Part shown: positions 2,185 to 22,510 of the stretch, one piece after another
Numbering within the stretch: the first letter of the stretch is position 1
How the letters are laid out: every line of letters begins with the position of its first letter
Virus record (IMG/VR): IMGVR_UViG_3300030090_002673
Span: 21,116 to 43,625 of that record
Length of the DNA: 22,510 nucleotides
Reading direction: 5' to 3' (one strand)
Origin: a virus
Notes under the pieces: model-generated
What the model was told of the DNA's origin: nothing
Databases searched by the model: none
The model's input: only the letters and a program-made list of their open reading frames with translations
Made by a program: the position numbers and the translations under genes

Positions 2185-3093
2185 CTAAAATGGGGTGTCT
2201 TCTACTTTATACTTAGGCTCACCATTTGGTAATGTCTGTGAAGCTATCCATCTTGCTACATGAACATTGCATTTCCCATTCATAAGATCGACAATATCAG
2301 CCACATATTGCTTTGGTATCCAGTAGTTTTTAGTAGCATCATAGTCATTTGGATCACCTGTAAACGTAGGAGGCAGAAACAAAATAGCTTTTTCTGTTTC
2401 CTTTCCTTTCTTTAAATCGTTAATCCAAACAAATTCATCCTCTGGCGGCGTTCCTTTCTTCAGCTTAGTTTCGCTATCACTTTCTTCTAATTCATCTATA
2501 AAGGGGTCATTTTCAGCCTCTTTGTGCTGTTCCTGCGCCTTCTCAGCAATCCTATCAGCTATATCCATTGCTGTGTCCTGCTTTTCTTCTTCTTTCTTAA
2601 CTGAAGGGTCAGGCTGGGGCTTAGAGGCACTTGTATGTGTAGTTGTGGATGCCTCTGTGGAGCTACCCCAGCCTTTTGGTTGCCAATCTCTATCAACGTA
2701 ACCATTGTCAAGATCAGCCCAATATTTTCCCATTGAATACAGATCCCGACCTATTCCATAATGCACTGCGGCACGTTTAAACGCATCTGAAGCCTGCCCT
2801 TTTTCAGCATCTACTTCAGTTTCTATACCACAGTCAGTCTTTTTAGTTACTTTTCCATCTGGCCAAGTTACTTTGATTGTGCAAAACATTTTATTCCCTG
2901 TAAAATTATATGAACCACTCCAATTATCTTTTCCAACTGCATAATCAAGCCTGTCCATTACAAAACGTGCATCTACATAAGCCAGCATACAGGCCTTTGT
3001 GCCACTTCTATTCTTAAAACCAACCCTGAACTGCACTCTGTCTTTTGGGGTAGGCTCATTTAAGGCATTAATTACCTCTTGATTTGTTTTCAT
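2185..3093 (-). CDS. Rad52/Rad22-like single-strand annealing protein
   Basis: A 302-residue protein. Residues about 15-130 match the Rad52/22 core: DARFVMDRLDYAVGKDNW at 41-58, then EKGQASDAFKRAAVHYGIGRDLY at 97-119, the most diagnostic segment. These proteins form rings that anneal complementary single strands in phage recombination. Residues about 140-210 are a charged, low-complexity linker, and 210-302 a separate C-terminal domain (YWIPKQYVADIVDLM, GEPKYKVEDTPF) of unknown role, possibly contacting a partner protein. Start ATG follows AGGAGG and overlaps the Gam-like gene's stop (TAATG), so the two are translationally coupled. Confidence 0.88.
   Translation of the reverse strand: MKTNQEVINALNEPTPKDRVQFRVGFKNRSGTKACMLAYVDARFVMDRLDYAVGKDNWSGSYNFTGNKMFCTIKVTWPDGKVTKKTDCGIETEVDAEKGQASDAFKRAAVHYGIGRDLYSMGKYWADLDNGYVDRDWQPKGWGSSTEASTTTHTSASKPQPDPSVKKEEEKQDTAMDIADRIAEKAQEQHKEAENDPFIDELEESDSETKLKKGTPPEDEFVWINDLKKGKETEKAILFLPPTFTGDPNDYDATKNYWIPKQYVADIVDLMNGKCNVHVARWIASQTLPNGEPKYKVEDTPF
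2775..2782. repeat. GTTTAAAC palindrome, copy 2
   Basis: Within the Rad52-like gene, over Ala-Phe-Lys-Arg codons. Here the palindrome extends to ten bases, CGTTTAAACG (2774-2783). Confidence 0.6.
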
Positions 3094-3641
3094 TATTTTC
3101 CTCCTGTTGTTACTGTGAATTTATCGTCACGATCCTCTACAGAAACGCCCAATGGAACGTCACCTGTCTCTTTAATATATTTCATTATAGCTTTTTTATC
3201 AGGGTCATATTTAGTTACTATTCTTACTAACTCCTGCTTATCTCCTAATGCTCTAAAAAACTCATCCCTGTCCTCAATTATTAATAAAGGCTGTTGCTTT
3301 CTTGTTTTTAAAGTACCATTAGGAAAGCTTATTGTTTTGATTTCTGGGTCTTCTAACTTTTTATAAGTAAAGAAAGAATAAAGCAGTGCAGTCATTTTAT
3401 CAATGCGCCTTTCATGCTTTGCCACTATTGCGGCCTGCCAATCTTTTAAACTTTCCACTTCTTTTTCTAATTGCCTGTTCACATCATCAACCTTTTGCCT
3501 TTCCCTCTCTATTACATGCAATAAGGCATCAACCTGAACTTCATTATAGTCTTGCTCTTGCTGGTCAACTTCTGGATCAGCAATGCCATTTACAATCTCC
3601 TCATAATATGAATCAATGTTGTTTGTGACATTTTCAGCCAT
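3093..3641 (-). CDS. Gam/Gp157-like host-nuclease inhibitor
   Basis: A 182-residue protein with an acidic N-terminus, a coiled coil at about 40-85, then a compact C-terminal region with KTISFPNGTLKTRKQQP and PDKKAIMKYIKETGDVP, ending in SVEDRDDKFTVTTGGK. This arrangement (long coiled coil, SFPNGTLKxRKQQP strand, DKKAIxKY helix) fits the phage Gam-like and Siphovirus Gp157 families, which shield DNA ends from host nucleases or support recombination. Pairing directly with a Rad52-like annealase fits that role. The start has a strong AGGAGGG five bases upstream. The inhibitor function is inferred from family and neighbours. Confidence 0.7.
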   Translation of the reverse strand: MAENVTNNIDSYYEEIVNGIADPEVDQQEQDYNEVQVDALLHVIERERQKVDDVNRQLEKEVESLKDWQAAIVAKHERRIDKMTALLYSFFTYKKLEDPEIKTISFPNGTLKTRKQQPLLIIEDRDEFFRALGDKQELVRIVTKYDPDKKAIMKYIKETGDVPLGVSVEDRDDKFTVTTGGK

Positions 3642-3653
3642 TATACCCTCCTG

Positions 3654-4019
3654 TTAATTTTCAATATTTGTGAATAATAAGCGTTGGCCATTTGCATCTT
3701 CACGCATTTTATTTCTTGCCTGCATCAGCAAACTCCTCCTCCTACTGATAACAGCAATCCTTTCCTTTAGATTGTCTATTGTAGGCTCAAGCTGGTCTGC
3801 TGTCTTAGCATAGAAAAAGCCTAATGAACCAGAGGCTATAGGCAACCCCTCATCCCTTAATAGGCCTACTGCCTCACGAACAACCCTATTGCTTATGTTG
3901 TATAGCCTCTCAAGCTTTCTTGAAACTATTGGGTTAGCAAAACTTGAATTAAGCTTTAAATAGATGCCTATCCTATCTTTCATTATGAGAGCTTCGCTAC
4001 TGTGATGTTTTTTGCTCAT
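3654..4019 (-). CDS. Winged-helix DNA-binding protein
   Basis: About 121 residues from the ATG at 4019 (two further in-frame ATGs lie at 4025 and 4031; only 4019 has even a weak GGA site). The segment SRKLERLYNISNRVVREAVGLLRDEGLPIASGSLGFFYAKT reads as a winged helix: a recognition helix followed by a wing with GSLGFF. A following coiled-coil helix (DNLKERIAVISRRRSLLMQAR) is typical of small phage HTH proteins. It overlaps the preceding ribbon-helix-helix gene by 23 bases. It could be a transcription regulator or a replication accessory; the sequence does not decide. Confidence 0.65.
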   Translation of the reverse strand: MSKKHHSSEALIMKDRIGIYLKLNSSFANPIVSRKLERLYNISNRVVREAVGLLRDEGLPIASGSLGFFYAKTADQLEPTIDNLKERIAVISRRRSLLMQARNKMREDANGQRLLFTNIEN

Positions 4020-6862: not shown

Positions 6863-9433
6863 CTATACACTCCTTGCTTTAATAGACAGTTTTCCAACTG
6901 ATCTTTTTGTATCTGTAATTATGAATTTTAAATTTCCCCAGTCATTATTAGTTAATGGTTTTTCAGGAAACATATTTGTATTGTTAAAATCTATAATAGA
7001 ACCAACTTCTATAGGCTCTAAACTGGAGTTAACCCATTTTGCAGGGTTTATAATATTAAAACTAATTTTTAAATAAACATCTCCAAACAAAGCATTCTGG
7101 TAAGCCGCAAAAGAAGTGTTTTTATTATCGTTAGTTGGGTCTGTATCCCCTACTGCGTTTTCGCTGGCAGTTGTTACAAGCATATCTAAATTAACATTTT
7201 CAATATTTTCTTTTTCTTGAATATTATAATTTTTTCTTGATGAAGAATTAACAGCCGTAAGAGTGCTTTGATATGTTCTTTTTGCTGGATGAACATTATA
7301 ATTAATTACTTGTTTTGTAACAATATCAGAAGGGCTAGAAGTTGTTAACGACACTGCTCCAATATCGTTTTTATTAAGGGTTAAAACACTAGAAGGGCTG
7401 TTGTCTATATGGATATACTGAGGTTGATTAAAATCGCCTTGTTTAAACCTAAATACAAATTGTCCTTCATACTGAGCTTTTTCTAATACGTCTTTTAATA
7501 GCTTTGGTTTATGACACCACCATCTAATTTTCCAATCACCCCTAACTGCCGCCATACTTTGCCAGCCGTCAATATTTGTATTGGGGTCTGTAGCTACATC
7601 AATCCCACAAAATCTATTAAGCAAATCAAGATGAGCTTCTTGTACCCTAATTACGTCTCCACTTGTCCCTGTCGTACCTTGAGTAAGTCCATCTGAATCA
7701 GTATAAAGCCATTTTACTGATTTTACTCTAGCAGAAGCATCTGTTGTATCGTTGTATCTATCAATCCTTGAAGTAACTGCTACCCTGACATCATAAACAG
7801 TCAATGTGCTAAAAATATTAGAGGAAACACCTCCACTTCCATCTACAGAAGAAGAAACGACTCTTTTAAATCTTATAGAAAGCCCATTATCATAAGGATA
7901 TTCAGAAAACTCTGTAGCTGTAACTGCTCCATTTGTTGAACTTGTTTGCTCTGCTATCGTTGTAGCATTACCGCTACCTGTAGCCCCATTTACTAAATCA
8001 GCGCTTCCATTTGTCGCAAATGTAGTTCCATCACTTATTCCTGAATCAGTTGCAGTCCCAGAAGCATACCTACTGTTGTTTGTTATTGCCCAAGAATTAT
8101 TAGCAAGACCAGAAGTGTTTGAAGTGACTCCATAAAAATTAGTCATTTTCCATCTTACCATTATTGTCATTCCATAGTTATCAGAAGAACTTGTTATGTC
8201 TGGAGGATCATCCATAGCCTGAAGGTTAAAAATATTGTCTAACGTCAACGTATTTGTCTGTCCACTTTCATTATCATTCATTGTAGCCTCTTCACCACCA
8301 TTTGAACTGGTATGGTCTACGTCTCCATCTATCATATTCCCTATACTGCTAAATGTTTTAGAAACTGCTCCAAGAGGTTTTAATTTAAAATGCCTTTTTA
8401 AATGCCATTTTGTTTTTAAAATATATCCATTTTCATAGCTTTCAGCATCATGTTTATCTACAACAGGAATAAACGCATCAAGTCCCTCATCATAATATCT
8501 TAAAAACCTATTATTGCTACCAAAATCAAAAGGCAATAAGCACTTATAATAATATCCATACCTGTCAACCTGAACAGGAAACAAGCTTTGCCCTACCCCT
8601 GAAGCTGTGTTTGGAAATTTTAAATTATTTATGTATTCAGTATCTGTAGAGGTTAAATCAGAATTATATGTACTTGGTTGTCCTTGAAAGTCACCATAAA
8701 CTACAGGAAAATAGTTGTTTGTAGTGGTTGTCTGGGTTTGAGGAATAGAAATATTGTCCCAAGGCCTGTGGCTAACCATTGAAATTTTTATAGTGTCGCT
8801 TGATAGTGAAATATCACTAATCCTAAAAGAAGCAATTAAGGTTTTCGCCCCATTGTTAATTACGCTGTAAACATTTGCAATCCTGTTTATATACTTGTGG
8901 GTGACAGTTAGCTCTTGAGATACTAAAGCCCCCTTATAGGTAAAATCAGGAAAAGTTATAGAAACATTGCTTGTCTTGTTTATTGATTTTTTTAAGTCAA
9001 TAGATTCTCTAATGCTTGGAGTGTTTGTTATAACTCCATGATAAAAAGTACCTTCATCTGTGTAGTCTGAGAAAGCTAATGGTAAAAAATTATGCCAGTA
9101 AATTGGAGCATTGTCGCTATGAGATGCCGCAGTTGTTCCTTTTACTCCTCTTGTGACCAGAACATTGTCTGGGGCGACCATACTATGTATGTACATGACT
9201 TCATTATCAACTTTAATAAAATCTCCTACTTGAAATACGCTTTCATCATCTACATCAAAACCCTCTTCAGTAGTATTTAAAGCTTCTCTTGCTAAATTAG
9301 GATTTCCATCTGCTTGTTTTACAGCATCAAATCCACCATCTCCAGAACCTTGAGCATCCCCATTATAAAACCCTAATTGGAATAACCAATTTTCTTTAAT
9401 ATTAGACAGTTTTATTGAAGAAGGATAAGCCAT
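6863..9433 (-). CDS. Large tail-tip / hub-like tail protein
   Basis: An 856-residue protein overlapping the tape measure stop (TAATG). Residues 66-112 hold a motif common in phage tail-tip proteins: FQVGDFIKVDNEVMYI followed by VLVTRGVKGTTAASHSD. The middle (about 340-560) is Ser/Thr/Asn-rich and repeat-like, perhaps an exposed insertion. The last third (from WKIRWWCHKPKLLKDVLEKA, through GQFVFRF, to LEPIEVGSIIDFNN and KRSVGKLSIKARSV) looks like a hub domain of the kind that caps the tail tube. Position directly after the tape measure supports a tail-tip role. No peptidase or glycosidase motif seen. Confidence 0.65.
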   Translation of the reverse strand: MAYPSSIKLSNIKENWLFQLGFYNGDAQGSGDGGFDAVKQADGNPNLAREALNTTEEGFDVDDESVFQVGDFIKVDNEVMYIHSMVAPDNVLVTRGVKGTTAASHSDNAPIYWHNFLPLAFSDYTDEGTFYHGVITNTPSIRESIDLKKSINKTSNVSITFPDFTYKGALVSQELTVTHKYINRIANVYSVINNGAKTLIASFRISDISLSSDTIKISMVSHRPWDNISIPQTQTTTTNNYFPVVYGDFQGQPSTYNSDLTSTDTEYINNLKFPNTASGVGQSLFPVQVDRYGYYYKCLLPFDFGSNNRFLRYYDEGLDAFIPVVDKHDAESYENGYILKTKWHLKRHFKLKPLGAVSKTFSSIGNMIDGDVDHTSSNGGEEATMNDNESGQTNTLTLDNIFNLQAMDDPPDITSSSDNYGMTIMVRWKMTNFYGVTSNTSGLANNSWAITNNSRYASGTATDSGISDGTTFATNGSADLVNGATGSGNATTIAEQTSSTNGAVTATEFSEYPYDNGLSIRFKRVVSSSVDGSGGVSSNIFSTLTVYDVRVAVTSRIDRYNDTTDASARVKSVKWLYTDSDGLTQGTTGTSGDVIRVQEAHLDLLNRFCGIDVATDPNTNIDGWQSMAAVRGDWKIRWWCHKPKLLKDVLEKAQYEGQFVFRFKQGDFNQPQYIHIDNSPSSVLTLNKNDIGAVSLTTSSPSDIVTKQVINYNVHPAKRTYQSTLTAVNSSSRKNYNIQEKENIENVNLDMLVTTASENAVGDTDPTNDNKNTSFAAYQNALFGDVYLKISFNIINPAKWVNSSLEPIEVGSIIDFNNTNMFPEKPLTNNDWGNLKFIITDTKRSVGKLSIKARSV
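7441..7448. repeat. GTTTAAAC palindrome, copy 4
   Basis: In the hub-like tail gene, over Arg-Phe-Lys-Gln codons. The only copy whose flanks do not follow the Y...R pattern of the others. Confidence 0.55.
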
Positions 9434-11991
9434 TAAGCAAGATTCATGCGTTGAGCTTTTTCAATAGCAGGAATAATCGTATCTACTATGCTTTCATCTA
9501 CAAGTGGAGCAGAAATATTAAGAGTAATGCCTCCCATGCCTCCTGCTAAATTTTCCTGTTGAGCTTGATTTAATATAAGCTCCCCTGCTGTGGCTTTCAC
9601 TGGGACAACATCCCCAAGATTAGGATCACCCTGAACAATACCACCCTGAGCAAATTGTTGAGATTCTATATTTGCAACATTTGCCAAGCCTGCGGCTGTT
9701 ACTGCGGCGGCTAAAACATAATTAAAAGGAGGAGGAGCAGAGGCCAGCGCTTTAGTGGCGGCTGAATAAGTGTCTATTATAGCGCCAGCTTGCGCCAATC
9801 TTTTGTTTACTAAAGCAGAACCCTTAAACGCTTCATTAAGCTGTCCTAAACCCCCTATTAACTGAGAAACAGCGTTAGCTTGAAATGAGACTTCATCTGC
9901 TCTAATCTGCTTTTTTTGCTCTGCTACAAATCTTGCAATATCAGTTTCATGCACCCCTGCCTGTTCAAAAAGCTTTGCTTGCTTGCTCATCATTACTCTA
10001 CGCATGGCAAAGTCAGTATTGAACATCCCACTCATCTGCTCATTAAACGACTGCCTTATCTGTATTTTTTCATCACTTGATAGCTCTTCTTGTGTTTTAA
10101 CAAAATCTATGGCATCTATCTCAGCCCTTCTTATTTCATTAACAGCTTCGATTGTTTCACCTAAACTTCTGTAAGACTCTTGAGTGCTTTCGTTTGCTGT
10201 CTGTTGTTTTACACTAGATTCTTCTGCCTTAATTCCCAAAGAATCTAACGTTTCAGCTAACTTATTTACAAAGTTTGCATGCTCTTCTAAGGCTATATTC
10301 CCCTCTATTTCAGCCTCTTTGTAAGTATCCACAGCATCTGTTGCCCTTGCCAACTCTGCCTGTATAAAAGTAACCATTTGCCCAAGCTCAGTAAATGATT
10401 CTCCAGTTTTTTCATTCATTTCTGCCAAAATTTCTTTTTGCCCATGCGTTTTATTAGCGGCCTTTGCTAGTTCTTGATACTTTGAAGCCTGCAAAGCAAG
10501 ATTTTCTTCAAGGCTTTTACCAGAATCAATAGCGACTCCTGTTCTTATTGATAGTTTTTGCAGTGAGTCCTCAGCTTGAATAGAAGCCTCTGTTTGTTCC
10601 CTAAATGCCTCTGCTGATTCTTTTAATTTTTCAGCTATAATTTCCTCTTGAACAGCAATTCTGATTTTTTGCCTATATTGATCATTTACATTTTTTAAAG
10701 ACTTTTGAATTTCATCTGCTGACAATTTTTCCCTATTCATGTTCTGTAAAAAATCTGGGTATTTTTTATCAATTTCACTAATTAATCTTGACCTGACTTC
10801 TTCTTTGTCTATATTTCGAGCTAAAGCCTTTGCTAGATTTGTTAATTCAGCCTGATCTCTTCTTAGCTTTTCAGAAGTTTTTAATTTTATAAAATTATCA
10901 AAGCTTCCCACAAGAGAAGTCATTTTTACTGTTGCTTTTTCAAGCCCGGGAGAAAATCTTTCAAAAATAGATATCCCAAGGCCTTCCATTGCGCTATTTA
11001 ATAACGTTGCTTTTCCAGCTAAATTATCAAGCTGGATATCTGCCATCCTTTGAGCCGCACCACTTGCATTATCAAAGGAAGTGGACAATTTTTCTGTAGC
11101 ATCAACCCCATCTAATAAAACGCCAAATGCAGAAATCGCTCTTTGCCCCACAAGGTCTTTCATTTCAGCAGTTGTTAAACCTGATTCTGAAAGCTTATCA
11201 AAAGCTTTTTGCAAATCTTCAGAGCTTTTTACAGGAAATCCTATTTTTTCGCTTAGTTTAGAGCTTTCATTTCCAAGCTCAAGTAATATGCGCCTTAATG
11301 AAGTTCCAGCCATAGAACCCGAAATACCAGCGTTTGCAAGCGTTCCAAGCATTGCAGTAGTGCTTTCAACATCTAATCCAACCTGTTTTGCCACAGGAGC
11401 AACATATTGCATAGAATTTGTAAACTTGTCCATATCTAATGCTGAAGAACTAAAGGAAGCCGCCATAGTATCTGTCACCCTCGAAGTTTCAGAAACATCT
11501 AACCCAAAAGCTCTTAATGTTTGCCCTGCAACAGCCGCAGACGTAGCCAAATCAGAACCAGAAGCAGAAGCAAGGGCTAACGTGTCTTTTGTAACCCCCT
11601 GAATTTCTTTGCTCGTAAAGCCTAACTTTGCAAATTCTGTTTGAAGCTGGCCTACTTGGGTTGCTGTAAAAACAGTAGTTGACCCTAAATCTTTTGCATT
11701 TTTTTCAAGCGCTTGAAGCTCTTTACCTGATGCTCCAGAAATAGAAGCGACATTTGACATTGTTTTTTCAAAGTTTGCCCCAACTCTAATCACTCCAGAA
11801 ATAGCTTTTGTTGCCGCTATAACGCCTACAGTTGTCAACCCAAGCTTTGCAACCATCCCCCCAAGAGCAGAAGAGCCTCCTCTCGTTGAGCTTTCTAATC
11901 TTTTTGTTCTAGCCTCTAATTCAGAATATTGCTGTTTTAATTTTGCAACACCCTTTCCTTGAAATTCTATTATTTGCTTATTTGTTGCCAC
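9433..11991 (-). CDS. Tail tape measure protein (TP901 type)
   Basis: An 852-residue protein. Residues about 75-245 match the PhageMin/TP901 tape measure core: MSNVASISGASGKELQALEK, LGSTTVFTATQVGQLQTEFAKLGF and LANAGISGSMAGTSLRRILLELG. A long helical region follows (about 330-690), then a hydrophobic stretch (PPPFNYVLAAAVTAAGLANVAN) and the usual C-terminal GGIVQGDPNLGDVVPVKATAGELILN. The protein sets tail length during assembly; at roughly 0.15 nm per residue it would suit a tail of about 130 nm (rule-of-thumb estimate). The start is GTG at 11991, with AAGGAG upstream, overlapping the end of the gpT-like frame by 14 bases. No lysozyme or peptidase insertion seen. Confidence 0.93.
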   Translation of the reverse strand: MATNKQIIEFQGKGVAKLKQQYSELEARTKRLESSTRGGSSALGGMVAKLGLTTVGVIAATKAISGVIRVGANFEKTMSNVASISGASGKELQALEKNAKDLGSTTVFTATQVGQLQTEFAKLGFTSKEIQGVTKDTLALASASGSDLATSAAVAGQTLRAFGLDVSETSRVTDTMAASFSSSALDMDKFTNSMQYVAPVAKQVGLDVESTTAMLGTLANAGISGSMAGTSLRRILLELGNESSKLSEKIGFPVKSSEDLQKAFDKLSESGLTTAEMKDLVGQRAISAFGVLLDGVDATEKLSTSFDNASGAAQRMADIQLDNLAGKATLLNSAMEGLGISIFERFSPGLEKATVKMTSLVGSFDNFIKLKTSEKLRRDQAELTNLAKALARNIDKEEVRSRLISEIDKKYPDFLQNMNREKLSADEIQKSLKNVNDQYRQKIRIAVQEEIIAEKLKESAEAFREQTEASIQAEDSLQKLSIRTGVAIDSGKSLEENLALQASKYQELAKAANKTHGQKEILAEMNEKTGESFTELGQMVTFIQAELARATDAVDTYKEAEIEGNIALEEHANFVNKLAETLDSLGIKAEESSVKQQTANESTQESYRSLGETIEAVNEIRRAEIDAIDFVKTQEELSSDEKIQIRQSFNEQMSGMFNTDFAMRRVMMSKQAKLFEQAGVHETDIARFVAEQKKQIRADEVSFQANAVSQLIGGLGQLNEAFKGSALVNKRLAQAGAIIDTYSAATKALASAPPPFNYVLAAAVTAAGLANVANIESQQFAQGGIVQGDPNLGDVVPVKATAGELILNQAQQENLAGGMGGITLNISAPLVDESIVDTIIPAIEKAQRMNLA

Positions 11992-12424
11992 GCTTCTTCA
12001 TTCTCCTTACCTCATGCTCAGTTACTATAGACTTGATAATAAAATGCTTTTGAATCCATATCTTTGGCGTATCCCCATATCCTCCTGAATATGGAGGCGT
12101 GTTTGTGTCTTTTGAATAAGAATATCGCTTAATATCACTTTGGAATTTAGCATCAAGAAAGTTATTTATATTTGAAAAAAAGGGAATTTGGGCGTAAGTG
12201 TCTAAATAAGCACCCCCAACGCTGTTTTTATTGTGGTCTACAGCTTCATAATAAACCCTTAATAAATAAGAGTTTAATTCTTCTTTATTGTTAAAGGTTA
12301 CAACGCCTTCACCAGAAAAAACTGACTTTGCTTTATATGGAAACGCATTAAACTCTGGCCTATCTTCAGGTGAGCCTAAAAGGCTACAGACAGCGTTAAT
12401 GCCTAAAAATAAGCCTTCTACTCC
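11978..12424 (-). CDS. gpT-like tail chaperone extension, reached by frameshift
   Basis: A long open frame fills the space between the gpG-like gene and the tape measure, in the -1 frame of gpG. The visible extension is about 147 residues after the shift (EGLFLGINAVCSLLG ... HFIIKSIVTEHEVRRMKKRGNK). It contains no ATG, GTG or TTG between the upstream in-frame stop and codon 141, so it cannot be an independent gene with a normal start. It fits gpGT, the fusion made in lambda-like tails to load the tape measure, which is exactly where it lies. The fused product would be about 245 residues. The extension overlaps the tape measure start. Sequence evidence for the frame: strong; the frameshift itself is inferred. 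Confidence 0.8.
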   Translation of the reverse strand, partial: GVEGLFLGINAVCSLLGSPEDRPEFNAFPYKAKSVFSGEGVVTFNNKEELNSYLLRVYYEAVDHNKNSVGGAYLDTYAQIPFFSNINNFLDAKFQSDIKRYSYSKDTNTPPYSGGYGDTPKIWIQKHFIIKSIVTEHEVRRMKKRGNK

Positions 12425-12427
12425 CCC
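12418..12427 (-). promoter_or_regulatory. Probable -1 frameshift site (GGGGGAGTAG)
   Basis: The gpG-like gene ends CTG GGG GAG TAG. A glycine tRNA on GGG can re-pair with GGG one base back, after which GGA GTA GAA continues into the gpT-like frame. This is not a textbook X-XXY-YYZ heptamer, but it is the only homopolymer run in the overlap where the shift must occur. Confidence 0.6.
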
Positions 12428-12717
12428 AGCGTTTGCACATCCTGAATAAGATTCATCAAATCATCTTTTTCTTCTAAGGTAAGTTCTTTTATTACGCTAT
12501 CAACAGGAGTGTCATTTGCTTCTTTGTAGTTTTTAAAATCTCCACCTCCCAATCCATAGCGAATCCACTGGGTGCGTGCTTTAGATGAATTTTTTATTGT
12601 TTTTATTGATCCATCTTGAAATATAATTTCAGGAATATCAGTACACTCATCAATCTGGTCAACTGACATCTGTTTTATTTTTACTTTACGACCTGATTTT
12701 AATTTTTTATCAGTCAT
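12418..12717 (-). CDS. gpG-like tail assembly chaperone
   Basis: A 99-residue, highly charged protein between the tail-tube candidate and the tape measure, the position of gpG in lambda-like tails. It begins MTDKKLKSGRKVKIKQMSVD and ends ELTLEEKDDLMNLIQDVQTLGE, mostly helical at the C-terminus. The assignment rests on position, size and the following -1 frame rather than on recognisable motifs. Ribosome site GGAGGG lies six bases before the ATG, directly preceded by a GTTTAAAC palindrome. Confidence 0.75.
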   Translation of the reverse strand: MTDKKLKSGRKVKIKQMSVDQIDECTDIPEIIFQDGSIKTIKNSSKARTQWIRYGLGGGDFKNYKEANDTPVDSVIKELTLEEKDDLMNLIQDVQTLGE

Positions 12718-12743: not shown

Positions 12744-13769
12744 TTAACTCATTTTAAAAACAGCAAGATTGGCATCTCCATCTGTCCCTGCTGTTGCCCT
12801 CCAAGGAATCTCAACGAACATCCCTTCATCAGCAAAGTCAATGTTGTGTCCTGTCATTCTTGCATTTGGAATTGAAAAATCCCAAGTGCCTCCATCATTT
12901 AAAGCAATAGCATAATTTGTATTTGCTTTCCAATCTGCTAAGGCATCTGCTGAATTTGCTTCATACTTAACAGTAATTGATCCAGAGATATCATATAAGC
13001 CTGCTCTGTTATATCCATCTGCCTCTGCGCTTGTACCTTGCCACGCTACTCTATTAGCAGGGTTTGATATTGTGCATGTAAAAGCTGAAACAGTCATTGC
13101 ATGCCCCCCCACTGTTAAAGTGGTAAAGTCAAACAAACCTTTTTCATAATTCACAGCAGTTGTCGCCCCTGTAACGCCAGAGTCTTTAACAATAGGCTTA
13201 TATCCACTATAAAATTGCCCTGAAGCGTGTAAACGACCAGCATCCGTTGCCATGTCCATAGAAAGCGTTAAATTTTGTAAAACTGCTGAGTGCATTATCT
13301 GATCATCAGCCGCAAGCCCAGAAGTAGTAGGAGGGGCAACCAATAAGACTATCCCAACATTGTCAGCAGTAGTTGATCCATGAGAATAATCATTTGTCGT
13401 ATTTGCGACAGTAGGAGATATAGTCACTGTGCCTGTACAGTCAGCTACGTCAGTTGCTAAACTTAACAAAGTTTGAAGCATTACTTCATTTTCTACTAGA
13501 TAATCAAAATCGTATGTCCACACACCAGAGCCATAATGACGAATTAAATCCCCATCCTCTAATGACCTTCTGCCACTTCTTAGCACTTCTGCTGTTTGGA
13601 AACCCCCATCATAATTAATTCCACTAATCTGGGCAACTCTCATAAACAATCTTGAGCCACTTACAAAATCAGCATCTGCTAAATTACCATCTCCCCCTAT
13701 GGCTAATGCAGAAACGTCTTGCTTCCCGACCACTAATTGATATTCTCTTCCTGATGCGTTGGTAGCCAT
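12744..13769 (-). CDS. Major tail (tube) protein candidate
   Basis: A 341-residue Ala/Gly/Thr/Asp-rich protein with strong ribosome site AAAGGAGA. It is beta-rich, begins MATNASGREYQLVVGKQDVS, has a repeated NYDGGFQTAEVLRSGRRSLEDGD type strand-turn pattern near 52-74 and closes with DFADEGMFVEIPWRATAGTDG. The identification is mainly positional: it is the gene immediately before the chaperone pair and tape measure, and its composition suits a high-copy structural protein. Longer than minimal tube proteins (about 150-250 residues), so it may carry an extra surface domain. Confidence 0.72.
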   Translation of the reverse strand: MATNASGREYQLVVGKQDVSALAIGGDGNLADADFVSGSRLFMRVAQISGINYDGGFQTAEVLRSGRRSLEDGDLIRHYGSGVWTYDFDYLVENEVMLQTLLSLATDVADCTGTVTISPTVANTTNDYSHGSTTADNVGIVLLVAPPTTSGLAADDQIMHSAVLQNLTLSMDMATDAGRLHASGQFYSGYKPIVKDSGVTGATTAVNYEKGLFDFTTLTVGGHAMTVSAFTCTISNPANRVAWQGTSAEADGYNRAGLYDISGSITVKYEANSADALADWKANTNYAIALNDGGTWDFSIPNARMTGHNIDFADEGMFVEIPWRATAGTDGDANLAVFKMS

Positions 13770-16600: not shown

Positions 16601-17004
16601 GCAAAAGCTCCTACAGATTCATTATTTTTCCTGTCATGCAAATAACATGAAACCAGTATAGCCTCATAAGTATCTTTTTTAACAGGTAACATTGGATACC
16701 TATATTTTACAACATTAATCCAATGCTTATCCATTAAAACAGGGTCATCAGGCCATAAACCAAAATAGTCCATCCATCTTTTTGACTCTATTACTTCATA
16801 TTCCCAATTATAAGTATCCAGTATTCCTGTCCATCTTCCTATTTGAAAAACGCTACCATTGTCTATAATAGCACATTTTGCTTTTAAATATTTATAATTA
16901 TCAAATATTTTAAGATTAAATTTTTCATAAATACTATAAGAAGACATAGAATTTCTATAAAGGATTGCCAAACATTGACCCGGAACTATACCAATAAACA
17001 TCAT
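16597..17004 (-). CDS. Divergent RuvC-like protein lacking the first catalytic Asp
   Basis: A 135-residue protein that aligns by eye along its length to the resolvase at 1222-1722. Its IGIVPGQCLAILY matches IGIDPGINGGVAII, with Val7 in place of catalytic Asp7. CAIIDNGS matches CIIERVHS (Asp48 for Glu53), GRWTGIL matches GQWLGIL, YEVIESKRWMDYFGLWPDD matches YKEVTPQMWMKSYGSLPKD, and KKDTYEAILVSCYL matches KTADAILLANYC. Asp111 and Glu114 keep the C-terminal acidic pair. The loss of the first Asp predicts a weakened or absent nuclease, perhaps a structural or DNA-binding remnant. It is coupled to the endolysin, an odd place for a recombination protein. Overlaps the upstream stop (ATGATG). Confidence 0.7.
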   Translation of the reverse strand: MMFIGIVPGQCLAILYRNSMSSYSIYEKFNLKIFDNYKYLKAKCAIIDNGSVFQIGRWTGILDTYNWEYEVIESKRWMDYFGLWPDDPVLMDKHWINVVKYRYPMLPVKKDTYEAILVSCYLHDRKNNESVGAFA

Positions 17005-17303
17005 AATTCATCTTTCAAGTTCTTAATAACCCCATTGACAATAGCGTGCTTTCCAATAACGTATCTTCCATGTACATCATTGTAGTGTTTTTTGCATTCT
17101 TTTGTATATTCATCTTCTGCTGTTTTTAAGCTATCTGTTTTCAAATGAATTTTCCCATTAGCCCAGACAATATATTTTTTTGTCGTAGAATTTGGAATAT
17201 CATCATCAAACTCATAGGGTTTAAAAAATATTTTAACATCTTTACCCTTATGTGATCTTCTATAAAGGATACTACTCCCCCTTTTCTTCCTTAGCTTCCT
17301 CAA
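17001..17303 (-). CDS. Hypothetical protein with no ATG start
   Basis: An ORF with a conserved-looking body (RRSHKGKDVKIFFKPYEFD, then IVWANGKIHLKTDSLKTAE and HGRYVIGKHAIVNGVIKNLK) but no ATG anywhere. The coordinate given uses TTG at 17303, six bases after AAAGG. Alternatives are an AUC at 17270, four bases after GGGGGAG, or a +1 shift from the upstream gene on the GGGGG run. The true N-terminus is unsure. The protein is basic and beta-rich; no family recognised. It ends in an overlap with the RuvC-like paralogue. Confidence 0.5.
   Translation of the reverse strand: MRKLRKKRGSSILYRRSHKGKDVKIFFKPYEFDDDIPNSTTKKYIVWANGKIHLKTDSLKTAEDEYTKECKKHYNDVHGRYVIGKHAIVNGVIKNLKDEL
17272..17281 (-). promoter_or_regulatory. 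Second GGGGGAGTAG element: ribosome site or recoding site
   Basis: The 79-residue gene ends AAG GGG GAG TAG, the same ten bases in the same codon phase as at the gpG-like stop (12418-12427). The next ORF, without an ATG, lies in the +1 frame. It may be a strong ribosome site for a non-AUG start, or a second shift site. Confidence 0.45.
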
Positions 17304-17511
17304 ACCCAACCTTTGCAATAGCTTGATAATGATCACGCAAAACGATATTATCAGCAAGCGTAGCGTTTAAACGCCCTATCTCATTGTTTAAAGCCCCTGT
17401 TTTTTCACAGGCAAACACCTGCTCAGGTGTAAGCTCTTCTGCTGTTTTTTCAACTGTTTTACCATCTTCAAACGCCATTGTATATGTTCGAGGTTCTTGT
17501 TCTTTAGCCAT
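17272..17511 (-). CDS. Hypothetical acidic protein, 79 residues
   Basis: Strong ribosome site (CAGGAGA), start overlapping the upstream gene's stop by 8 bases. The N-terminus is a small beta unit (RTYTMAFEDGKTVEKTAEEL) followed by a helix (EIGRLNATLADNIVLRDHYQAIA). The layout recalls DUF6447-like small phage proteins (a short 'GKxYxLxxL' strand pair, then a helix with a Tyr near the end), but the match is loose. Part of the cluster of small genes that follows the tail fibre. Confidence 0.6.
   Translation of the reverse strand: MAKEQEPRTYTMAFEDGKTVEKTAEELTPEQVFACEKTGALNNEIGRLNATLADNIVLRDHYQAIAKVGFEEAKEEKGE
17365..17372. repeat. GTTTAAAC palindrome, copy 7
   Basis: In the 79-residue gene, over Arg-Leu-Asn codons; a full ten-base CGTTTAAACG palindrome (17364-17373). 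Confidence 0.6.
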
Positions 17512-18308: not shown

Positions 18309-18725
18309 CTAACAAACGAGGTATCCACTAAAATATGATTGCTCTAAAAGGTCGTGACTTGCTCCACCAGCAGTACCACCAGCAAGTATTTGCACATACG
18401 CTGTATCACTTGCATCCATATCTGCTAGAATTGATAAGCCTAATGCCAAAAGAGTCACATCTTGATCAAAGCTACGAGGATCAATCGTTGAAACGTAATT
18501 CACATTTGATGTGGCTAATATTAATTGATAGTAGGTGTATGCTATTTCAGCATCTTTAATCTGTATTTGGACATTAAACTGGTATCTTCCAGTAACAGGA
18601 GCAGTAAATGTATTGGATGCAAAATTAGTACCTTGATCAAATCTTTCAGTTCCCATCACAACAGTGACTGCTGAATTTTCTGCAAAAGCATCTTGTGATG
18701 ATGCTGGATGAACTAAAAATGCTGG
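18309..18725 (-). other. C1q-like C-terminal domain of the tail fibre
   Basis: About 135 residues starting near FLVHPASSQDAFAEN. FTAPVTGRYQFNVQIQI and the closing FSGYLV are the best-matching strands of the C1q/TNF fold. Such domains trimerise and often bind ligands, which suits a fibre tip. Confidence 0.6.
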
Positions 18726-21700
18726 CATTGTTGTAGACATATATTTATCAGCATAAACTGTAGCACCACTATCTTGTGCCATATAAACAGCAGTTACAGA
18801 ACTATTACCAAGTGTTACAGAATTATTACCTTGTCCTGTTGCTTCATAACCTAAAGCTGTTTGATTTTCTGCTGTTGCTGAACTTGCTACTGCAAATGCT
18901 CCTATAAGAGTGTTTTGATTTCCACTTGTAATATCAGTAGATGTGGCAGTATTTCCAGATTGAAAACCTAATGCTGTATTGCTACTTCCTGTTGCATCTG
19001 ATAAGCTTTGACAACCGATTGCAGTATTGTATAGGTGAGCATCCCCACCAGACATTGCATATGCCCCAACCGCAGTATTACTATGACCATCTACCACTGT
19101 ACCTAAAGCAGATTCACCTATTCCAGTATTTTGTGAACCTGTCGTAAGGGCATCTAAGCTTGAAGTACCTACTGATACATTATAATCTCCTTCAGTAATG
19201 CTTCCTAATGCATTTTTCCCTACTGCAACATTATCAGTTGCTCCATTTAAAGCAGAATCCATAGCATAGTTTCCAATGGCAACATTATTATTTGATGCCG
19301 CATCTGCCCATGTTCCACCTCCTGAATCAACTCCGATAAATATATTTTCGGTGCTACCTAATGAATTATTACCAGCATTGGTATCATCCATTGCACCATA
19401 GCCGATAACTGTATTATATCCACCTGTAGTATGGACTAAACCAGCATTATGCCCAATGAATGTTGAATAGCTACCACTAGTAATATTACCTCCTGTTTGA
19501 TAACCTACCGCTGTATTCCCAGCTCCAGAGGTATTATTAGCTAATGACGCAAATCCTATTGCAGTAGCTCCACTTGCCGCAGATGTTAAAACTCCTTGTA
19601 ATGTTGCCGCTCCAACAGCAACGCAATAATTCACATCAGCAGTTGTAAAATTACCAAACATAGATTGACAACCGATAGCTGTATTATAATCTGATGCAGT
19701 TGAAGCTCTGTGCATTGCGCTGTATCCAAGTATAGTATTACTTCTTGAAGTAGTTAATGCTAACCCAGCTTGATACCCGATAGCTATGTTTTCAACACCA
19801 GACGTCAATGCTGTAAGAGAATTATACCCAATCGCTATTGTTCCTGTTTGGGCATTTGTGCCTGTACTGTTTAAAGCATCTGTACCTATCGCAATGTTTC
19901 CTACAATTGCTGTAGAAGCAGTATTTAAATCTCCACCTAAAAACGAATCTTTACCTATTGCTATATTGCTATCAATCGTTCCATTAGTTCCTTCATCTAA
20001 TGATTGACCAGCCGCCATACCAATAAGGATATTTCCATTTTCAGCCGCACCCATTTCCTTACCAGCATTTCTACCAATAGCTACATTCGCACCGCCTGTT
20101 ACCAAATCTTCTAAGGCTGTATCACCTATAGCTATATTTGAACCACCTGACGTACAGGAATTTAATGCTGTATATCCTATTGCTGTATTACCAGCTCCCG
20201 AAGTCAAATTATTTAATGCACTAAATCCAACAGCAACTGTACCACTTGCAGTAGTTTCTAAAACACCTACACTCATTGAAGCGTACCCAAGAGCAGTACA
20301 ATTATTTACATCATTAGAGACTACGCTACCCATTGCATAATTTCCAAGAGCCGTATTCCCATCTAAATTAGCAGTAGCTTTTGAGAGTGCTTGAAAACCA
20401 ATCGCTACATTATGGTCAGAAGTTGTTAGGTCATTTCCAGCATCTTCTCCTATAAGCAAGTTGTAATTTCCACCTGAAGCGAGAGCATTTCCAGCTAATT
20501 TTCCAAAGACTGTATTTGATGCACCACTATCATTATTAGATAGTGAAATTCTGGAGTTGTCATCAAGTAACATTCTTATGTTAGCTCCACCAGTTTGCAA
20601 CGCTAACGATGCACTACTTCTTACACTACCTCTTCCAGATGCAATTAACTGAATATTGGCTTGATCTTCTCTAGAAACTTTTAAAGAAGTATCAGCACTT
20701 GCCTGTGCTACGACTAACTTTGCATCAATAGTAGATGCTCCAATACCAACATTTCCAGAGCTATCTATTCTCATTCTTTCAGCAACTGAACTTGAAGCTG
20801 AGGATGTCCAAAAACTAATTACACCATCATCTTTATTGGATGTGTCTGTACCAGACTCAAACCTAACAGAACTAACAACATTACTTGCTCCATCCCAAGT
20901 AGCATCTATCTTACCTAATAAATGGTCTGCATTTGTACCAACATTACCTTCAAATAAAAGTTGTGGAGCGTACCCAGCAGTAGTGTTATGTATTCTCATT
21001 GTAGCATTTTGAGTGCTTTCAATATGCAATAAAGACTCTGGTGAGTCAGTTCCAATACCTGCTCTAATATTGCTTGTATCTAAAACTAAATTAGTAAAAT
21101 CTTCACCAAAGTGCATTTTTCTTGCATCTGGGTCAAATTTTATAGCAGTAGTCCTACCAACACCACCATCATTTAATGCCCTCATATTAAATTGAATATC
21201 TGCTCCATTAGTAGACTCTTCAATTTGCAACTTAGCTGAAGGACTTGCTGTGCCGATACCAGTTTTGCCATCCGCACGAACTACAAACCTAACATTACCA
21301 GCACTTTCATCTGCATCAGAACTATTGGTTTTAATAAACAATGGATAAGATGTAGTGTTTTCATCTTGAGTTGCTATAATTAACCCATTACCAAAATTTG
21401 TAGTATTTGTAGGGTTTGATATGTGCATAGCATAACTTGAACTATCTTGCTGAACCTTTATACCAGTAGCTCCAGTTGCACTTGCATGGTCATTTATAAC
21501 AAGCATTATATTTCTAGTAGATGTATTTGATGCGTTTGAATATATATATGCTCCATTACCAGTAGTAAATGAAGAGCCATCAACATATAATCCATGCCTT
21601 GTTGTTGCATCTGTAGCTATTAATAATCCGTCTCCATTACCATTTTGGTCAATTTTTACTGCTTGTTGAGCGGCATCTTGCTTAACAAACAAAGCAGTTG

Positions 21701-22510
21701 TGCCAGTAGCGTTTGCATGCTCATTTATTATATGAACTAAATTTCTTGTTCCACCATTATTCTGATTAGAGTTTATATATATTATTCCACCAGTAGTTCT
21801 GCTTGTGCCTACATCATTTATATTAATTCCATACCCAGTTGTCTGTTCGGAAACATCCATATAGATGCCTTGACCATCTTGTGCTTCTGAGTCTATTGTT
21901 AAAGCTGTTCCATCAGTAGCATTTGCATCAATCGTTACTGTACCAGTAAAAGTAGAAGCACCTGAATCAAGCAAGGACATAACCTCAGTAGAGTCTCCTG
22001 TAAATATTAATGCTTGAGTATTGTAATTAGCATGAATTGACCAAATATTATCTGTACCAGAAGTATTAGTTATAGTTATCTTGCTTGAGGTGTTATCATT
22101 TCCTTTAATGTCTAAAGCTGTTGCTGGAGAGTCATTCCCAATACCGAGCTTGTTTGCCTTTATATAAACAGTATTTGAATTAGCTCCATCTGTTAATACA
22201 AGAGAATCTGCACTTGCATCATTAAATATACTTGCTTTGTCTGTACCAGCTTCTTTAAATCTTATAAACCCATCTCTATCAGCCGCAGTATCAATATCAA
22301 TATATGCAGAAGCATTCGCACCATCTGATTCTACAGTTAAGAAAGTATTGTTACTTGCATGATTCTGGTATATATGTAATGCACTTCCTTGATTTGTAGG
22401 AGAGCTAGTGCCGACACCTAATGCTCCTCCGATGTTAGCCGTAATTACTCCTCCACTTGTAGAATGAAGAGTCAAAGCATCATTACCTAAAGGTGCTAAT
22501 ATTAAATTTC
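18309..22510 (-). CDS. Giant repeat-built tail fibre, partial at right edge
   Basis: The frame is open from the right edge (NLILAPLGNDALTLHS...), so the true start lies outside; at least 1399 residues are visible. In order from the visible N-terminus: several copies of a GIGTxSPxxxLxI strand motif typical of phage fibres; two roughly 77-residue tandem units (about 21440-21800); about 32 copies of a YadA-head-like NxAIG repeat (about 18805-20520); and a C-terminal beta-sandwich of about 135 residues (FTAPVTGRYQFNVQ, SYFSGYLVC) like C1q/TNF-type domains. This suits a trimeric receptor-binding fibre with a globular tip. Last domain likely contacts the host surface. Confidence 0.85.
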   Translation of the reverse strand, partial: NLILAPLGNDALTLHSTSGGVITANIGGALGVGTSSPTNQGSALHIYQNHASNNTFLTVESDGANASAYIDIDTAADRDGFIRFKEAGTDKASIFNDASADSLVLTDGANSNTVYIKANKLGIGNDSPATALDIKGNDNTSSKITITNTSGTDNIWSIHANYNTQALIFTGDSTEVMSLLDSGASTFTGTVTIDANATDGTALTIDSEAQDGQGIYMDVSEQTTGYGININDVGTSRTTGGIIYINSNQNNGGTRNLVHIINEHANATGTTALFVKQDAAQQAVKIDQNGNGDGLLIATDATTRHGLYVDGSSFTTGNGAYIYSNASNTSTRNIMLVINDHASATGATGIKVQQDSSSYAMHISNPTNTTNFGNGLIIATQDENTTSYPLFIKTNSSDADESAGNVRFVVRADGKTGIGTASPSAKLQIEESTNGADIQFNMRALNDGGVGRTTAIKFDPDARKMHFGEDFTNLVLDTSNIRAGIGTDSPESLLHIESTQNATMRIHNTTAGYAPQLLFEGNVGTNADHLLGKIDATWDGASNVVSSVRFESGTDTSNKDDGVISFWTSSASSSVAERMRIDSSGNVGIGASTIDAKLVVAQASADTSLKVSREDQANIQLIASGRGSVRSSASLALQTGGANIRMLLDDNSRISLSNNDSGASNTVFGKLAGNALASGGNYNLLIGEDAGNDLTTSDHNVAIGFQALSKATANLDGNTALGNYAMGSVVSNDVNNCTALGYASMSVGVLETTASGTVAVGFSALNNLTSGAGNTAIGYTALNSCTSGGSNIAIGDTALEDLVTGGANVAIGRNAGKEMGAAENGNILIGMAAGQSLDEGTNGTIDSNIAIGKDSFLGGDLNTASTAIVGNIAIGTDALNSTGTNAQTGTIAIGYNSLTALTSGVENIAIGYQAGLALTTSRSNTILGYSAMHRASTASDYNTAIGCQSMFGNFTTADVNYCVAVGAATLQGVLTSAASGATAIGFASLANNTSGAGNTAVGYQTGGNITSGSYSTFIGHNAGLVHTTGGYNTVIGYGAMDDTNAGNNSLGSTENIFIGVDSGGGTWADAASNNNVAIGNYAMDSALNGATDNVAVGKNALGSITEGDYNVSVGTSSLDALTTGSQNTGIGESALGTVVDGHSNTAVGAYAMSGGDAHLYNTAIGCQSLSDATGSSNTALGFQSGNTATSTDITSGNQNTLIGAFAVASSATAENQTALGYEATGQGNNSVTLGNSSVTAVYMAQDSGATVYADKYMSTTMPAFLVHPASSQDAFAENSAVTVVMGTERFDQGTNFASNTFTAPVTGRYQFNVQIQIKDAEIAYTYYQLILATSNVNYVSTIDPRSFDQDVTLLALGLSILADMDASDTAYVQILAGGTAGGASHDLLEQSYFSGYLVC
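18805..20520 (-). repeat. About 32 NxAIG beta-roll repeats in the tail fibre
   Basis: Repeats of the form N-(T/I/V)-A-(I/V/L)-G followed by variable turns, counted by eye from NTVFGK to SVTLGN, mostly 14-28 residues apart. They resemble the left-handed parallel beta-roll of YadA-like adhesin heads. Spacing is irregular in places (longer insertions such as NGTIDSN), so the array is diverged. Confidence 0.75.
21440..21800 (-). repeat. Two tandem 77-residue units in the tail fibre
   Basis: Unit one holds IIYINSNQNNGGTRNLVHII and NEHANATGTTALFVKQD; unit two holds AYIYSNASNTSTRNIMLVIN and DHASATGATGIKVQQD. They are about 231 bases apart and clearly related, so this part grew by duplication. Boundaries are approximate. 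Confidence 0.7.

Follow-up and report, generated by a model that had tools for sequence, protein, structure and literature searches.

How is a long reading frame translated when it has no start codon near its beginning? The question is raised by an uncultured tailed phage in which such a frame, here called the T frame, lies between a gpG-like tail-assembly chaperone gene and the tape measure gene. The locus was examined in a window of 22,510 nt (the whole stretch of DNA analysed; positions 21,116–43,625 of IMGVR_UViG_3300030090_002673). An earlier note on this DNA had proposed that the frame is entered from the chaperone gene by programmed frameshifting. Comparison with relatives makes it very probable that the locus is a gene of the lambda gpG/gpGT type with −1 programmed frameshifting, yielding gpG and gpGT.

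Gene layout and reading frames

The features of the window that bear on this question are the following:

12744..13769, minus strand: 341-aa protein, putative major tail protein by position only, directly upstream of the gpG-like gene
12418..12717, minus strand: putative gpG-like tail-assembly chaperone ORF (zero-frame product), ATG start, TAG stop, 99 aa
11978..12460, minus strand: start-less −1 frame (T domain), 160 codons, TAA stop
12421..12427, minus strand: candidate slip heptamer G_GGG_GAG, at a position that holds slip-type sequences in relatives
12418..12420, minus strand: zero-frame TAG stop, abutting the heptamer
12408..12416, minus strand: predicted downstream stem, 5′ arm
12356..12364, minus strand: predicted downstream stem, 3′ arm, with compensatory changes in relatives
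9433..11991, minus strand: tape measure protein gene (phrog_1533, E 7e-75; PhageMin_Tail, E 1.3e-37)

The −1 frame, coordinates, codon counts and missing start described in the earlier note were all correct on recount. The offset between the two frames (12717 − 12460 = 257, which is 2 modulo 3) places T in the −1 frame relative to gpG, with an overlap of 43 nt. Thirteen codons of the T frame precede the junction, and the remaining 147 begin with GTA (Val14); the first ATG, GTG or TTG is an ATG at 12001, codon 154 of the frame or 141 counted from the junction. When 20,000 sequences of matching composition were drawn from a first-order Markov model, none kept a frame open over 146 codons. The dN/dS values of the T frame, 0.08–0.30 in every computable pair, indicate purifying selection, and substitutions fall mostly at its own third positions. 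On these sequence grounds, the T frame encodes a protein.

The tape measure gene, which lies directly downstream of the gpG-like/T region, begins with a GTG inside the end of the T frame. The 341-aa protein on the upstream side has no family match in Pfam or PHROGs; its gene also sits upstream of the gpG-like gene in relatives. Antisense to the tape measure gene there is a 173-codon ORF (11081–11602, plus strand), which is probably a by-product of the composition of that gene. Farther away, an ORF of at least 1399 aa (18309–22508, minus strand), open at the window edge, contains many repeats of the NTAIG/NVAIG type and perhaps encodes a fibre or appendage protein.

Conservation of the arrangement and variation of the slip site

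In scans of IMG/VR, 18 other contigs proved to encode relatives of the gpG-like protein, at 51–89% identity. The gene is carried through its stop on 16 of them, L028 and L015/L043 being cut off inside it. Cultured phage records gave no match to gpG or T, and no gpG relative was found in prokaryote genomes. The −1 frame is open in 16/16 contigs with a complete gpG-like gene; in one of these, L008, it runs off the contig after 10 codons. In the 12 closer relatives (72–89% identity) the length of gpG is 99 codons without exception, and beyond its stop the −1 frame stays open for a further 146–151 codons, save for the truncated L008. The arrangement is no different in the four distant relatives (51–57% identity), whose gpG has about 104–110 codons. 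The earlier note had named two observations that would count against its reading, a homologue with a normal T start and loss of the open frame in close relatives. The T frame has no conserved start codon of either the standard or the rare kind, and no close relative has lost the frame. A sequencing error or a decaying gene that split one ORF, conceivable for a metagenomic contig, is refuted by the relatives and hardly deserves any weight, given the same arrangement in 16 independent contigs and purifying selection in both frames.

The slip position is kept across 17 genomes (the window and the 16 contigs), and its sequence changes. GGGGGAG occurs in seven of them (the window, L003–L007 and L023), GGGGGAA in four (L008, L012, L041 and L042), AAAAAAT, read as A_AAA_AAT, in two (L010 and L011), GGGAAAG, which is the lambda heptamer G_GGA_AAG, in one (L009) and GGGAAAA in another (L025), and runs of eight or nine A residues take the position in the remaining two (L039 and L040). 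The heptamers of L009 and of L010 and L011 are at the base-for-base homologous position to that of the window. In the window and the closer relatives, the two slip codons come directly before the gpG stop, and the codon that precedes them has the base of the run in its third position. At least three changes of slip type are needed on the tree, where the G5 type occurs to either side of the deepest branch as drawn (midpoint root). The conservation of the position while the sequence changes is the strongest evidence that G_GGG_GAG is the −1 slip site of the window. The earlier note had placed the slip point at CTG GGG GAG TAG, the best candidate within the 43-nt overlap, and the homologous slip heptamers of the relatives support that choice. 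It had also suggested comparing the overlap in related phages: the −1 frame is kept in all of them and the slip position is conserved, and the G5 run itself is absent from L009, L010, L011 and L025.

That last result also bears on the idea that T is a separate protein, made either from a non-standard start or by ribosomes that re-initiate once past the gpG stop, the ribosome-binding site being GGGGGAG. GGGGGAG does resemble a Shine-Dalgarno sequence, and codon 21 of the −1 frame in the window is ATT, a possible rare start. However, the run is missing in the four genomes just named, and at codon 21 other relatives have ATA or ATC, with Leu encoded there in L012 and L023, which leaves independent initiation very improbable.

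In the distant relatives L041 (region 3001–3758) and L042 (region 56–813) the sequence TTG GGG GAA occupies the same protein position, and ribosomes remaining in the zero frame would read on for 10 and 5 codons, respectively, before the gpG stop. Judging from this comparison, not every member of the family has its stop adjacent to the slip site. Pausing at the stop codon was considered as a required element and rejected, since both genomes keep GGGGGAA with the stop at that distance.

Predicted stem-loop downstream of the slip site

A feature overlooked in the earlier note is a conserved stem-loop beyond the heptamer. RNAalifold, applied to 12 sequences, predicts a nine-pair stem starting about 5 nt after the heptamer, in which 93.9% of the cells are paired, compared with 24–56% in slid controls. 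Compensatory changes are found at four of the nine pairs (13 compensatory cells). The covariation score was matched by 0/500 shuffles, a count that cannot be read as a probability when the sequences are related. Since the stem region also encodes T, a stricter control was used in which synonymous codons were shuffled within the T frame. In the stretch that follows the slip site the mean z was −2.8, or −2.6 when more shuffles were run; the rest of the frame gave nothing stronger than −1.8, in a stretch that overlaps this one. For the window alone, the simple dinucleotide z is only −1.25. L041 and L042 have stems of their own in the same place, that of L042 being a different one, perfect over 10 pairs (CCCTCGCAAT/ATTGCGAGGG). 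No convincing stem was found in L040 (none) or L012 (weak). An upstream Shine-Dalgarno stimulator was not supported, with AGGA present in some relatives and CAAGA in others when inspected by eye.

The stem also helps to weigh transcriptional slippage, in which the polymerase would add an extra base on the run. The A8 and A9 runs of L039 and L040 could permit it, but the run of the window is no longer than G5 and that of L009 is G3A3, rather short for a polymerase to slip on. With a conserved stem in the mRNA at the spacing of a frameshift site, the ribosome is the more likely agent, and slippage during transcription can be given scarcely any credence.

Mode of slippage, predicted products and known systems

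We infer frameshifting itself, its efficiency, the tandem over the P-site-only mode and the function of T, as follows. Most ribosomes would read gpG (99 aa, ending in QTLGE) and stop at the TAG. A minority would pause at the stem-loop about 5 nt downstream, slip by −1 on G_GGG_GAG and read 147 more codons, giving gpGT (246 aa). A shift of both tRNAs is the likeliest mode: tRNA-Gly would move from GGG to GGG with perfect re-pairing, and tRNA-Glu would leave GAG for GGA, forming a G-U pair at the middle position.

The earlier note had stated that the heptamer is not a standard two-tRNA site. It was right that the sequence does not follow XXXYYYZ: under the X_XXY_YYZ definition, which requires YYY in the −1 A-site codon, G_GGG_GAG gives GGA, and four close relatives (L009, L010, L011 and L025) do conform. 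One-tRNA slippage, however, need not be assumed, since with G-U pairing tRNA-Glu in the A site could re-pair on GGA as well. In many tail-chaperone genes of actinophages GGGGGAA has been recorded as a slip motif, accounting for about a thousand SEA-PHAGES motifs in the ‘fivetwo’ class of PRFect, whose authors regard its re-pairing as complete if G-U is allowed (PMC10885494). The window falls within the five/fivetwo definition of that program, its G5 placing GGG in the P site in both frames. Corynephage phi16 is a further GGGGGAA tail-chaperone case, with a predicted 3′ structure (PMC5506516). No experimental test of G_GGG_GAG as a slip site was found in the literature.

The earlier note had instead favoured a P-site-only −1 shift, tRNA-Gly moving from GGG to GGG. 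In such a shift the A site would be vacant or face a slow codon. The perfect GGG-to-GGG re-pairing suits this reading, as does the fact that tRNA-Glu on GGA requires a middle G-U pair. Against it, true two-tRNA heptamers (GGGAAAG, GGGAAAA and AAAAAAT) stand at the same two codons in relatives, and the tRNA of the A-site codon (GAG, GAA, AAG, AAA or AAT) can re-pair in −1 when G-U is included; P-site-only slippage is an unlikely reading, although one with some weight. The two modes would differ at the junction, which is Leu-Gly-Glu-Val-Glu by tandem slippage and Leu-Gly-Gly-Val-Glu by the P-site-only shift. The Gly-Gly-Val-Glu peptide that the earlier note proposed for mass spectrometry thus holds for the latter and would detect only that slip, tandem slippage giving Gly-Glu-Val-Glu.

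For the tandem mode, a broader proposal seems somewhat favoured: G_GGG_GAG and G_GGG_GAA would be true tandem slip sites, tRNA-Glu forming a G-U pair at the middle base of GGA with assistance from the conserved 3′ stem-loop. Within this phage family they would have replaced, or been replaced by, G_GGA_AAR and A_AAA_AAT at a single position, in a natural series of interchangeable heptamers. The occurrence of canonical and G5-type sites at one homologous position with a covarying stem makes the two-tRNA G-U idea for GGGGGAR directly testable. With GGGGGAA already recorded as a tail-chaperone slip motif, GGGGGAG is a minor variant. The locus has a slightly unusual heptamer and a predicted conserved stimulator, and its value lies in the predicted natural series.

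Regarding the proteins, neither gpG nor T has a reliable match in Pfam or PHROGs, searched with single proteins and with alignment members, which gave weak, scattered matches only. The AlphaFold2 model of gpG (pLDDT 78.6) had no significant match in the PDB by Foldseek, where rows with E over 2 were ignored. VIA-align 2 was used to re-align it to 55 PDB chains, of which the HK97 tail assembly chaperone 2OB9 alone reached Z ≥ 2 (Z 5.6 over 82 residues, rmsd 3.8), a Z below the level at which a match is safe alone. In BFVD, the high-probability named matches are tail assembly chaperones and Mu FS-gp41 (E 0.01–0.03, probability 0.98–1.00). The predicted gpG fold bears a resemblance to the HK97 protein, at a sequence identity of 8%. 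The T-domain model was poor (mean pLDDT 50) and was left out of the fold search.

The locus resembles lambda gpG/gpGT (G_GGA_AAG) in its place before the tape measure gene, its short G frame, its start-less −1 T frame and a slip site near the end of G, and the relative L009 has the identical heptamer. Unlike lambda, the window has G_GGG_GAG as its heptamer, which abuts the stop, and a conserved downstream stem, and its gpG and T lack a reliable sequence match in the searched libraries. By analogy with the roles of gpG and gpGT in lambda tail assembly (PMC5009743), G may bind the tape measure and T may recruit the tail-tube protein. The actinophage GGGGGAA sites, themselves predictions, share G5 followed by an A-containing Glu codon, the −1 direction and the gene type, and phi16 also shares a predicted 3′ structure (PMC5506516), whereas the window has GGGGGAG in an uncultured phage and an unrelated protein sequence. 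The conserved tail-chaperone frameshift, as predicted here, would be extended to an uncultured phage family without curated profile matches, in which the start-less T gene is missed by start-codon callers.

A second GGG GAG TAG occurs elsewhere in the window. The ORF at 17001–17511 (minus strand) ends in AAG GGG GAG TAG, the next gene overlaps it in the +1 frame, and the only early starts of that gene in the window are TTG/GTG within the overlap. The site at 17272–17281 was considered as a further frameshift and rejected: the relatives L015 and L016 have no G run at this place and carry an ATG in the overlap for the downstream gene, so it looks like an ordinary overlapping start.
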